DNA of 64,000 nt from an uncultured SAR86 cluster bacterium (GTDB lineage: Bacteria > Pseudomonadota > Gammaproteobacteria > Magnimaribacterales > D2472), in contig CABYPB010000004.1 in NCBI GenBank assembly GCA_902520725.1, forward strand, positions 1-64,000. The letters are read 5' to 3'. The first letter of the stretch is position 1; every line of letters starts with the position of its first letter. A model generated the notes under the pieces. The model was not told the DNA's origin and did no database searches. It saw nothing but the letters and a program-made list of their open reading frames with translations. Shown here piece by piece: positions 10,197 to 34,138 of this stretch. The translations under genes were made by a program, and so were the position numbers.

Positions 10197-10350
10197 TAAA
10201 AACACTCCTTAGTATAAGGATTTTTTGAGAAAGATTTAGGTAAACTATTTAAAGAATTTTTAGATTTTAATGAGCTAAAATTACATGCTGGCATTAAAAT
10301 TGTACTTTATAGATTAAGTTGTCTAATGTCTATATATAAATTAAAAAAAT

Positions 10351-29031: not shown

Positions 29032-32000
29032 TTAAATCTCAATTATATTTTTACCAAAAACATCTTCCAATATAAAAAAATTTTCAAGCGAAGGTTTGAA
29101 TTTATATTGATCACCAATATCTATTATGGCTTCTGATTTGTCAGAAGTAACTCTCACATTTAGTCTACATGATCCGTCTGTCCAAAAATCTTTGTTAAAA
29201 GTATCGAGATATTCTGAAAATTTGTTTAAAGAAATAGCTTTAGAATTTTTTATATCGATTGTTATCTCTTTAATTCTTTTATCTAGCTCAGAATCAACTG
29301 TAAGAATTTCTTTGACTCTCATTCTAAACATTAATCCTCCCAAGTCTTCAGTTCTGTAATCATCAACCTCAATTGTTCCTTTCAAAGACAATATTTTTCC
29401 TTCTTTTAAAATATAATGACAATTTTCTAAAACTTCGCTTGAAACAATACCATCCATTGTTCCAGTTCCATCATTAAAATTAATAAAAGTTAGGGGTTTG
29501 CCCTTTCTATCCTTAATTTGTCTTACGCTATTTATTAAACAAATTAGTGTTGCTGTTTTTGTTTCGTTATTTAACTCGCTTATTTTTTTAGACCTTATTT
29601 TTTTTACTTTATTTTCAATAGCAAGCACAGGATGTCCAGACAAGTAATAACCTAAAGATTTTTTTTCAAATTCAAGTTTTTCTGTAAGTGTGAGTTCAGG
29701 AGTATTTTTATACTTTTCATAAGGATCAAAATCCTCTTCAATTGAAGAAAATAAATCGCCACTTTGCACAGAAGTATTATTACTATTGCTAGCACCATCC
29801 TTAAGCATATCCTCAACAGATTTGATTGCGATTGTTCGCGATGGAGCTAATACATCAAAAGCTCCTGACTGAGATAAAGCTTCAAGAGATTTTTTTCCTC
29901 CTAATTTAATATCAATTTTTTTTGAAAAGCTCCATAAGTCCTTAAAATGTGTTTTATCTCTAACATTACAAACATGCTCTATAAAAGCATCTGCAACACC
30001 TTTAATTGCTCCCAATCCATATTCAATATCTAAATCCTTATTCACATTAAATCTCTTTTCAGAAGTTCTTATATTAGGATTGAGAACATTTATTTTCATT
30101 CGAGAACATTCTTGGATTAACGCATGAATCTTATCTGTGTTTCCTAATTCTGATGACAGTACAGCTGCCATAAAATGCTCTGGATAATATGTTTTTAGAT
30201 AAGCTGTTTGATATGAGATGAGAGCATATGCTGCTGAGTGAGATTTGTTAAAACCATATTCAGCAAACTGATTTATTAAATCAAAAATTTGTTCAGCATT
30301 TTTTGATGTAATATCATTATTCTCACATCCTTTTACAAATATCTCTCTTTGTTCTTCCATTTCTTCTTTCTTCTTTTTACCCATAGCTCTTCTCAAAATA
30401 TCAGCTTGACCCAAAGAGAATCCTGCTAATACTCTTGCAGCTTCCATCACCTGTTCTTGGTAAACAATTACTCCATAAGTTTCTTCAAGAACCTCTTTAA
30501 GTAACTTATGAGGGTAGGTCACAGGACTTCTACCATGCTTCCTATCTACAAACTCATCATGCATACCAGAATTAAGTGGTCCCGGTCTATAGAGAGCTAA
30601 TAAGGCAGTTATTTCCTCAAATTTGGTGGGTTTTAATCTTTTAATAAGATCTCTCATACCCGAAGACTCTAACTGGAATACAGCCATTGTTTTTCCTGAT
30701 GAAAGAAATTTAAAAACTTTTTCATCATCAAGCGGTATGCTATCAAGATCAAGTTTTCCCTTATCTAGATTTTTGTTTATTGACTTAACTGCTCTGTCGA
30801 TAACTGTTAGTGTTCTCAAACCTAAGAAGTCAAACTTTACTAGTCCAATCTTTTCTACATCATCTTTATCATACTGAGTCATAACTGAGCTAGATGATCG
30901 GTCAACATATACAGGACAAAAATCAGATATGCTGCCAGGAGCAATAACAACTCCCCCAGCATGCTTTCCTACGTTTCTTGCAATGCCTTCAAGCTTGTAT
31001 GAAAGATTTACAATTTCTCGAACTTCATCATCATTTTTAATACTTTGTGCAAATAAAGGTTGTTCTTCTTTTGCTCTATCCAAAGTCATACCAGGAGCGA
31101 AAGGAATCATTTTTGAAATTCTATCGCCAAGAGCATAAGGTTTACCTAATGCTCTAGCTACATCTCTTACAACTGCTCTAGCCGCCATTGTTCCAAAAGT
31201 TGCTATTTGTGAAACAGCTCCTTCTCCATATTTTTTACTTACATAATCTATGACTAAGTCCCTTTTTTCCATGCAAAAATCGATATCAAAATCAGGCATT
31301 GAAAGTCTTTCTGGGTTTAAAAACCTTTCAAAAAGAAGTCCATGAACTATTGGGTCTAAAGTCGTTATACCCAAAGAGAATGCTACAAGCGAGCCCGCTC
31401 CAGAACCTCTTCCTGGTCCTACAGGTACATCATTATTTTTTGACCATTCAATAAAATCATAAACTATCAAAAAATAGCTCGAAAAACCCATATTCTTAAT
31501 TTGATTGAGTTCATAGCTTAGTCTTGATTTATATTCCTCTTGTTGATCTTTTTTAAAATTCTTTACGTATGAATGTAATCTTGCATTTGAAAGTTCTTCG
31601 AGATAAGTATCGAAGTTATGTTCTTTTGGAACAGGGTACTCTGGAAGAAAGTACTCTTTTGTATCAAACGAAACATTACATTTTTTTGATATCTCATTTG
31701 TATTTTCTATTAAAGAAATACAATCTTTAAATAAATTTTCCATTTGTTCAGAAGATTTAAAATACTGTTGTTCTGAAAAAATTTTCTCTCTATTAGGATC
31801 ATTTAATGTCTTTGAAGTGTTTATACAAACTTTTGTTTCATGAACTTCATAATCATCTTGATTTGCAAAGAGCACATCATTTGTTGCTACTATAGGAATT
31901 CCTTTTTCAACTGCCAATGGAAGTATATTTTTAAAATACTCAACTTCATCTGGTCTGTTCGTCCTTTGCACTTCCAATACAAAATCATCTTTAAAATATT

Positions 32001-32469
32001 TTGTAAAACTGTCAATAATTCTTGATGCATCAGATATGTTATTTCTTTTAAGGCACTCAAATAAATGACTATCTTTTCCTCCTGAAATAGCAACTATGTC
32101 GTTTTTTAGCTCAATTAATTCATTAAAATTGATTACAGGTGAGGTATATGTAGAATTGTTATGTGCATTAGAAATAACCTTCATTAAATTTTTATGCCCT
32201 TCATTTGTTTTTGCTAGACACAAAAGCTCATGCGAATTCTCATCATTGTCAAAAATTAATTTTATTGAAGCTCCAGATATCGGTTTAATTCCAGCTGCCT
32301 CGCATTTGTTGAAGAATTTTACAAGGCCAAACATATTTGATTTATCTGTCAAAGCAACAGAAGGAATAGAGTGTTTTGAAGCACTCTTAACAATTTGATC
32401 AATAGTTAATAAGCCTTGGCTAATACTATATTCTGAAGAGACCCTTAAATGAGAAAAAATACCACTCAT
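29032..32469 (-). CDS. dnaE: DNA polymerase III alpha subunit
   Basis: The replicative polymerase, 1145 aa. In order: a PHP domain (FSHLRVSSEYSISQGLL at the N-terminus), palm with PDFDIDFCMEKR supplying catalytic Asp residues, fingers, a clamp-binding motif QSGDLF near residue 900, and OB and C-terminal domains. The QSGDLF site matches the QxxDLF-type internal beta-binding motif. Its ATG overlaps the rnhB stop by 4 bases, and the gene ends the lpxD-fabZ-lpxA-lpxB-rnhB-dnaE run as in E. coli. Confidence 0.98.
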   Translation of the reverse strand: MSGIFSHLRVSSEYSISQGLLTIDQIVKSASKHSIPSVALTDKSNMFGLVKFFNKCEAAGIKPISGASIKLIFDNDENSHELLCLAKTNEGHKNLMKVISNAHNNSTYTSPVINFNELIELKNDIVAISGGKDSHLFECLKRNNISDASRIIDSFTKYFKDDFVLEVQRTNRPDEVEYFKNILPLAVEKGIPIVATNDVLFANQDDYEVHETKVCINTSKTLNDPNREKIFSEQQYFKSSEQMENLFKDCISLIENTNEISKKCNVSFDTKEYFLPEYPVPKEHNFDTYLEELSNARLHSYVKNFKKDQQEEYKSRLSYELNQIKNMGFSSYFLIVYDFIEWSKNNDVPVGPGRGSGAGSLVAFSLGITTLDPIVHGLLFERFLNPERLSMPDFDIDFCMEKRDLVIDYVSKKYGEGAVSQIATFGTMAARAVVRDVARALGKPYALGDRISKMIPFAPGMTLDRAKEEQPLFAQSIKNDDEVREIVNLSYKLEGIARNVGKHAGGVVIAPGSISDFCPVYVDRSSSSVMTQYDKDDVEKIGLVKFDFLGLRTLTVIDRAVKSINKNLDKGKLDLDSIPLDDEKVFKFLSSGKTMAVFQLESSGMRDLIKRLKPTKFEEITALLALYRPGPLNSGMHDEFVDRKHGRSPVTYPHKLLKEVLEETYGVIVYQEQVMEAARVLAGFSLGQADILRRAMGKKKKEEMEEQREIFVKGCENNDITSKNAEQIFDLINQFAEYGFNKSHSAAYALISYQTAYLKTYYPEHFMAAVLSSELGNTDKIHALIQECSRMKINVLNPNIRTSEKRFNVNKDLDIEYGLGAIKGVADAFIEHVCNVRDKTHFKDLWSFSKKIDIKLGGKKSLEALSQSGAFDVLAPSRTIAIKSVEDMLKDGASNSNNTSVQSGDLFSSIEEDFDPYEKYKNTPELTLTEKLEFEKKSLGYYLSGHPVLAIENKVKKIRSKKISELNNETKTATLICLINSVRQIKDRKGKPLTFINFNDGTGTMDGIVSSEVLENCHYILKEGKILSLKGTIEVDDYRTEDLGGLMFRMRVKEILTVDSELDKRIKEITIDIKNSKAISLNKFSEYLDTFNKDFWTDGSCRLNVRVTSDKSEAIIDIGDQYKFKPSLENFFILEDVFGKNIIEI

Positions 32470-33026
32470 TTGTAAATGACACCTTTAAAACTTTTTCGAT
32501 GAATTTCACAATAACCATTAATTTTTAGCAGTCTTAAGTGCTCAGCAGTGCCATAACCTTTATTATTTATAAAATCATAATTCGGAAATTTTGAGTTGTA
32601 TTGGATCATTAAATTATCTCTGTAAACTTTAGCTACTATAGAGGCTGCACTAATCTCAGGCTCAGAAGCATCGCCACCAATAATTGTCCTCATAGGGACA
32701 TTTAGATCTGGTTTATGTATACCATCAACTAAAACCAAAGCAGGTTTTATTGGTAAGTTTAGTATAGCTCTTTTCATTGCTAGTAAAGAAGCTTTAAGAA
32801 TATTAATTTTATCTATTTGAATATTGTTAACAATGCCGAAGCCAAAATAAGAATTTTCTAATATTAATTTAGCTAAAGCAGACCTCGTTTTAGGTGATAA
32901 TTTTTTTGAATCTTTTAATCCAGGAATATTTTCTTTTAACACAACTGCTGCAGCAACAACAGGGCCAGCTAAGCAACCTCTTCCAACCTCATCAGTTCCG
33001 GCTATTAAGTTACTTTTTAAATTAAT
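32466..33026 (-). CDS. rnhB: Ribonuclease HII, apparently without a standard start codon
   Basis: RNase HII cuts RNA of RNA:DNA hybrids and single ribonucleotides in DNA. The first ATG/GTG/TTG in frame is a GTG at 32942, but the open frame upstream of it encodes IAGTDEVGRGCLAGPVVAAA, the N-terminal active-site motif, so the gene must start earlier. Between the preceding in-frame TGA and this motif there is no ATG, GTG or TTG. Possible starts are ATT at 33026 (7 bases after GAGAG) or ATT at 33032, both within the lpxB 3' end. From 33026 the product is 186 aa. Other motifs (GLKDSKKLS, ISAASIVAKVYRD, HRKSFKG) are intact. Confidence 0.88.
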   Translation of the reverse strand: MNLKSNLIAGTDEVGRGCLAGPVVAAAVVLKENIPGLKDSKKLSPKTRSALAKLILENSYFGFGIVNNIQIDKINILKASLLAMKRAILNLPIKPALVLVDGIHKPDLNVPMRTIIGGDASEPEISAASIVAKVYRDNLMIQYNSKFPNYDFINNKGYGTAEHLRLLKINGYCEIHRKSFKGVIYK

Positions 33027-34138
33027 GTTAATTCTCTCGCTGCATCCGAATACCCTCTTCCCTTGAGCATCTTTTTTAATGATTCCGCGATGTTCTCAGA
33101 GTTCTCTTTCAGTAACAAAGTTTCTTTAATAGCATTCTTAATATTTTGTTTATTAAAATCATTTTGCAATAATTCAATGAAATAACGATGGCCAAGAAGT
33201 AAATTAGGTAGGCCAATATTATCAACTTTGAGCATACGAGATATTATTGAGTAGTTTATAAAATTTGTTTTATAACAAATAATTGGAGAGCAACCTAGAA
33301 CTGCTGATTCTAATGAGGCTGTTCCAGATGTAACAATGGATAACTCTGAAATAGAGAGAAATTCGCGCATTGAATTTTCTTTAATTATTACAGGCAAGTT
33401 GCTTGCTTGAAATGACTTTACCAAAACTTTCATTAATTTTTTATCAGCGGCAGGTATAAGATATAGATAGTCGTTATTTTCTTGAGAATGCTCTTGAATA
33501 AATTCTTTATATATTGGTAACATATCTTGCAGCTCAGATACTCTACTGCCAGGAAGCACTGAAATATATTTTTTATCTTCTGCAAAGTTATATTTTTTAA
33601 GCACATCAATCCTATCAATTTTATTAAGTGAGTAAAATGGGTGCCCTAAATGAAAACTTTTGTGTCCTTCTTTCTTGTAGAAATTATCTTCAAAGTTAAA
33701 TAAGCATAATGTTAAATCTATGTTTGCTTGTATTGATTTAATTCTATTTTGTCTCCAGCCCCATACTGATGGACTAACAACTTGAATATTTTTACTAACA
33801 TGTTGCTTTTTTAATGCTTTATGAATCCCCATATTAAAATCTGGAGAATCAATTCCAATAAAAAGATCAATTTTTTTATTAATAAAAGTTTCAATTAAAG
33901 AGTTTCTTAAATTTTTAAGCTTTCTATATTTTAATAAAGGTTGGACAAAGCCCATTACATTTATTTCAGAAAAATTAAACTCTGAAATAACGCCCAGTTC
34001 TTCAAGCTTAGGCCCACCCACACCAAAGAGATTAACGTCTGAATTTTTTTTTATTTCCTTTATTAAACCAGCGCCCAACCTATCACCAGAATGCTCACCA
34101 CAAACAACTCCAATATTTAATGGTCTGTTAGTCGGCAC
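33017..34138 (-). CDS. lpxB: Lipid-A-disaccharide synthase
   Basis: LpxB joins UDP-2,3-diacylglucosamine and lipid X into the lipid A disaccharide. The 373-aa protein begins with a GVVCGEHSGDRLGAGL motif (GExSGD). It contains NMGIHKALKK, PSVWGWRQNRIKSI and a C-terminal SGTASLESAVLGCSPIICYK sugar-nucleotide binding region. It starts immediately after lpxA. Its end overlaps the coding frame of rnhB. Confidence 0.95.
   Translation of the reverse strand: MPTNRPLNIGVVCGEHSGDRLGAGLIKEIKKNSDVNLFGVGGPKLEELGVISEFNFSEINVMGFVQPLLKYRKLKNLRNSLIETFINKKIDLFIGIDSPDFNMGIHKALKKQHVSKNIQVVSPSVWGWRQNRIKSIQANIDLTLCLFNFEDNFYKKEGHKSFHLGHPFYSLNKIDRIDVLKKYNFAEDKKYISVLPGSRVSELQDMLPIYKEFIQEHSQENNDYLYLIPAADKKLMKVLVKSFQASNLPVIIKENSMREFLSISELSIVTSGTASLESAVLGCSPIICYKTNFINYSIISRMLKVDNIGLPNLLLGHRYFIELLQNDFNKQNIKNAIKETLLLKENSENIAESLKKMLKGRGYSDAARELTLI

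Follow-up and report, generated by a model that had tools for sequence, protein, structure and literature searches.

In Escherichia coli the gene infC starts at AUU. Further starts of this kind are described in PMC13009471, according to which infC of Staphylococcus aureus starts at AUA, and which cites by title an AUU start of E. coli pcnB; the same article reports reporter constructs for three other S. aureus genes with AUU or AUA, which gave about 10% of the AUG yield in poor medium, one of them reaching up to 30% in rich medium. For CUG, a share of 0.024% of bacterial starts and 0.86% of the AUG yield are given in PMC11497404. Evolutionary switches away from an ancestral start codon are reported as rare in PMC5622118, with values of 1/2,468 for UUG to CUG and 1/61,358 for AUG to AUU.

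The DNA-repair gene rnhB (RNase HII) analyzed here, which lies in a window of 64,000 nucleotides (the whole stretch of DNA under study) from an uncultured SAR86 cluster bacterium, resembles infC and pcnB in being a conserved gene without an AUG, GUG or UUG start and probably with a low yield. It differs from them in that the infC and pcnB starts are backed by experiment and the S. aureus sites carry an extended Shine-Dalgarno sequence, whereas the window's rnhB has no strong Shine-Dalgarno sequence; moreover, unlike in those genes, its start appears to have been lost recently, and at a gene overlap. The missing start is real and rare. The explanation that we tentatively favor, at slightly less than an even chance, is that after the loss of a TTG rnhB is made by low-level near-cognate initiation coupled to the upstream gene lpxB, most likely at an ATT at 33026. 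SAR86 is an abundant marine group, and at this locus a single base naturally sets both where one gene stops and where its neighbor starts; a sister genome and a second lineage are at hand for comparison, and the candidate start codons make a short list. Among the papers listed by our literature searches, none reports on the start codons of SAR86 rnhB or infC.

The rnhB frame and its upstream junction across the order

The rnhB open frame runs on the minus strand, stop to stop, from 33095 to 32466 (32466..33095), and the conserved domain, recognized by both Pfam and NCBIfam, begins at the motif GTDEVGRG, the first base of which is 32999. The 32 codons from the preceding in-frame TGA to this motif include no ATG, GTG or TTG, as an earlier note on this DNA had pointed out, and the near-cognate codons that it had listed are those that we recovered, namely ATC 33083, ATT 33080, ATT 33032, ATT 33026 and ATA 33005. 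The first canonical codon in the frame is GTG 32942, 51 codons from the preceding stop, compared to at most 20 codons in each of 50 comparison genes (frames matching the sister contig, from window position 10345 onwards, hand-picked as real genes). Initiation at this GTG would remove GTDEVGRG. The gene has no AUG, GUG or UUG ahead of its essential residues, as in genes that start at a near-cognate codon. Gene-calling software that accepts only ATG, GTG and TTG would start rnhB at GTG 32942 and lose the active site, and such genes can therefore be misread as broken.

Upstream lies lpxB (33017..34138, minus strand; TIGR00215 above its cut-off), the likely source of the ribosomes that translate rnhB. 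Downstream lies dnaE (29032..32469, minus strand), whose ATG overlaps the rnhB stop as ATGA at 32466-32469, so that the three genes lpxB, rnhB and dnaE follow one another through close junctions. As the rnhB frame is -1 relative to that of lpxB and shares 79 bases with it in the window, a frameshift in lpxB could in principle yield an LpxB-RNase HII fusion; this is extremely improbable, given that reading by eye reveals no slippery heptamer in the lpxB frame ahead of its stop and that relatives have separate rnhB starts.

The rnhB junction was surveyed at one locus per genome in 157 genomes (203 searched in the order, 182 matched). A canonical start precedes the motif at 154 of these loci, the nearest being 2 to 7 codons away, and at 14 of the 157 even the furthest canonical start is just 3 codons ahead of the motif. 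The three exceptions are the window (L001), its sister genome G021 (L002) and G034 (L026), which belongs to another genus. The earlier note had asked if the missing start is conserved and had staked its interpretation on close relatives not all being normal: the sister also lacks a canonical start, and in this respect the interpretation stands.

At 100 of the 157 loci the start and the upstream stop share bases as NTGA (TTG 64, GTG 22, ATG 14), the upstream gene having been identified as lpxB in the window and the counts in relatives referring to the upstream stop irrespective of its gene. This is the same junction type as the coupled overlaps described in PMC12548453 and PMC6728339, whereas the window's junction reads TTAA, with the stop retained and no canonical start sharing bases with it. 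Within the genus, TTGA is common, being found at 23 of 30 loci; four others have an ATG elsewhere, two (the window and sister) have no canonical start and one is a divergent copy. The last of these (L040, genome G010) has 47% identity to the window's rnhB and the longest branch in the tree, and is perhaps a replacement or contamination. A search of viral contigs for a second copy of the junction gave 0 matches.

The four loci with an ATG elsewhere (L013, L014, L017 and L021) have TAA as the upstream stop, and their ATG precedes the motif by 3-5 codons. A TTA occupies the old start site in L021, as in the window, and in L013, L014 and L017 this upstream stop falls within the rnhB frame itself. 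The window shares the TAA stop with all four but is devoid of their ATG. These loci bear on the very unlikely alternative that ribosomes restart at the old site by position, whatever the codon there (UUA in the window, CUG in the sister, near a GUA in G034), with no start codon needed. Such a mechanism would fit the location of the relatives' TTG at precisely this site and the variable first base of the overlap starts. However, of the three bases of UUA only the middle one pairs with the initiator anticodon, and the presence of that ATG in all four other genus loci with a TAA-ending lpxB suggests that a start codon is needed. Were positional restart true, start/stop overlaps would need no start codon, and a change of stop in one gene could erase its neighbor's start without silencing that neighbor.

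In G034, the rnhB without a canonical start (L026, contig 230431-233985) is a separate instance, in which the upstream gene ends in TAG, with ATT, ATC and ATT just ahead of that stop.

Base changes in the window and its sister

The junction codons in the rnhB frame are AAT TTA AAA in the window, AAT CTG AAA in the sister and AAT TTG AAT in L003, the next locus in the tree. Thus, the position of the overlap TTG of the genus is occupied in the window by a TTA (33018..33020, minus strand), which the earlier note had overlooked, and a single base here sets both the lpxB stop (33017..33019, minus strand; TAA in the window, TGA in the sister and wherever a relative has TTGA) and TTA versus TTG in rnhB. 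The sister's junction is CTGA. Both differences between the two genomes are silent for lpxB, being TAA versus TGA and ATT versus ATC (both Ile).

In the phylogenetic tree the window groups with the sister (100/99), their nearest neighbor being L003 with its TTG (97/91), and the state without a start needs two origins; L026 sits on a long branch and its placement is less sure (93/84). By our own count, a TTG ancestor implies one change per species, and an ancestor with CTG or TTA three in all. The ancestral rnhB would have started at a TTG that formed TTGA with the lpxB stop, and ribosomes terminating on lpxB would have translated it. One lpxB-silent change (TGA to TAA) would have abolished this TTG in the window lineage, and in the sister a different one (ATT to ATC) would have turned it into CTG. 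If the CTG is used, the sister represents a switch of the type recorded in PMC5622118; unlike the switches described there, the two sister species depart from TTG in two different ways. If the codon is now internal, leucine is retained by either change, which would fit an initiation site that had shifted in the common ancestor of the two species.

A sequence error at 33018, which the earlier note had raised as an alternative, is conceivable in that one base would restore the common state (TTG with TGA) and the window derives from a single assembly. Yet the sister, which is a separate assembly differing by plain substitutions, has no canonical start either, and the same holds for G034, a genome of one contig, making an error very unlikely.

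The ATT codons at 33026 and 33032 are common to the window and sister, and L003 has CTT and AAT, respectively, at those places. The eight lpxB codons holding both ATTs and the GAGAG upstream of them are identical in the window and sister, which speaks weakly for the explanation favored here, given that 21 of the 366 overlapping eight-codon stretches of lpxB (~6%) are likewise identical.

Integrity of RNase HII and selection on rnhB

The product of the window's rnhB is recognized by Pfam PF01351 (RNase_HII) at 3.6e-40 and by NCBIfam NF000595 with 222 bits against a cut-off of 167, and it is the only RNase HII found in its assembly, which is 78.5% complete. The proteins of the window, the sister and G034 retain all 40 conserved columns (those conserved in at least 95% of the RNase HII proteins) and in this regard belong with the 119 of 157 proteins showing no departure at these columns. 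Elsewhere in the order, the arginine of DEVGRG is replaced by V, L or I in 17 of 17 RNase HII proteins examined in family f4 (L107, L108, L112, L117, L119, L127, L132, L133, L136, L138, L143, L145, L149, L150, L156, L159 and L164), the gene being otherwise kept.

Comparison of the window and sister rnhB gives a dN/dS of 0.21 to 0.23 (0.229). The median over 286 pairs of rnhB genes is 0.11, and the window/sister pair ranks sixth highest, although pairs sharing genomes are not independent; the five higher pairs are all drawn from L060, L062, L068 and L089, which belong to one genus. Among the 63 pairs with dS of 0.2-0.45, four exceed the window/sister value. In the same two genomes lpxB, dnaE, tilS, lpxA, fabZ and lpxD have dN/dS values of 0.025 to 0.168, with rnhB being the highest of the seven genes.

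These values, along with the absence of the start in both sisters, are what one would expect if rnhB were at the onset of decay, with RNase HII hardly made for want of a proper start and its loss being tolerated. We consider this a minor possibility, as the frame is intact, none of the 40 conserved columns is changed in the window, sister or G034, and dN/dS is far below 1; in other words, the window gene displays neither a broken frame, nor loss of conserved residues, nor a dN/dS near 1, as a pseudogene might. The comparisons instead show that rnhB is kept under purifying selection, perhaps with a weaker constraint than usual. Because the start is absent, its absence is common to the closest relative and the gene is under purifying selection, some form of non-standard initiation is likely. 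To this extent the earlier note's proposal of a non-standard start is supported, the grounds that it gave for ATT 33026 being weak.

Candidate start codons and apparent near-cognate initiation in the lineage

Under the explanation that we favor, coupled near-cognate initiation, ribosomes that have finished lpxB would now initiate a few bases from the old site, at a near-cognate codon of rnhB that is most likely the AUU at 33026 (33024..33026, minus strand; ATT in the sister, CTT in L003), which overlaps lpxB by 10 nt; the product would be made at low yield and be two residues longer. Re-initiation from lpxB, which the earlier note had listed as an alternative to an ATT start, probably contributes to such initiation rather than competing with it as an explanation. 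The ranking of ATT 33026 as first follows from a rule seen in phage cases, where, according to the review PMC12548453, coupled ribosomes chose the start nearest the stop: by our own count ATT 33026 lies 4 nt behind the P site of the terminating ribosome and ATA 33005 lies 17 nt ahead of it.

As previously noted for this DNA, a GAGAG within lpxB (33034..33038, minus strand; read 33038-33034) ends 7 bases ahead of ATT 33026, which itself overlaps the lpxB end. This Shine-Dalgarno-like motif is weak and hardly above random positions. The best pairing with the 16S end is -3.6 kcal/mol for ATT 33026, -3.3 for ATT 33032, -3.1 for TTA 33020 and -0.4 for ATA 33005. Pairing of -3 or better was found for 28% of the 50 window genes versus 24% of 1500 random positions, and of -4 or better for 22% versus 13%, so some window genes use Shine-Dalgarno pairing; ATT 33026 lies below the latter level. 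We accordingly rejected Shine-Dalgarno strength as an argument for ATT 33026, its -3.6 being within the range of 24% of random positions. The presence of a nearby ATT was set aside in the same way, since ATT, ATC or ATA occurs 1-4 codons upstream of the overlap start in 31 of 100 relatives in which that start is normal; 83 of the 100 have one of these codons nearby, either upstream or downstream.

It is possible, though on the whole doubtful, that another near-cognate codon is used, either ATA 33005 (33003..33005, minus strand), 11 nt past the lpxB stop, which would give a short protein beginning M-AGTDEVGRG, or ATT 33032 (33030..33032, minus strand), which is shared with the sister. In favor of the former, infC of the window's family seems usually to start at ATA, and the 14 loci whose furthest canonical start is 3 codons before the motif imply that a start at 2 codons could yield a working enzyme; however, it has the weakest upstream pairing, and a start there would replace the hydrophobic residue that relatives keep before AG. 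ATT 33032, for its part, is farther than ATT 33026 from the lpxB stop.

A link of rnhB initiation to IF3 is plausible, and a survey of infC in the order bears on near-cognate initiation more generally. It covered 90 of 154 matched genomes, 50 of them taken from the search returns and 40 picked by hand. No ATG, GTG or TTG precedes the IF3_N domain at 46 of the 90 infC loci of the order and at 17 of 21 in the genus. In the window's family a single position, 9-10 codons ahead of the domain, mostly carries ATA and several times ATC, and two genus members have ATG and GTG at that very position; some of the 44 loci counted as canonical also carry ATA or ATC there, with a TTG or ATG only further in. 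From this conservation we infer that ATA and ATC probably serve as infC starts. The frequent occurrence in the order of infC genes with only ATA or ATC available supports coupled near-cognate initiation of rnhB, in that the lineage seems to use such starts, and suggests that near-cognate initiation may be part of normal SAR86 life.

No infC was found in the assemblies of the window (G000) or sister (G021). We considered whether lax initiation might stem from a loss of IF3 and rejected this, as ribosomal protein L20, encoded within 1 kb of infC in G008 and G013, is missing too, and the absence looks like an assembly gap. Across the surveyed infC loci (L171-L260, with G034 as L234), families f1 and f2 usually have ATA, as does genus g9 within f3, whereas ATC is usual in genus g14, the other f3 genera examined have ATG and the six f4 loci have TTG.
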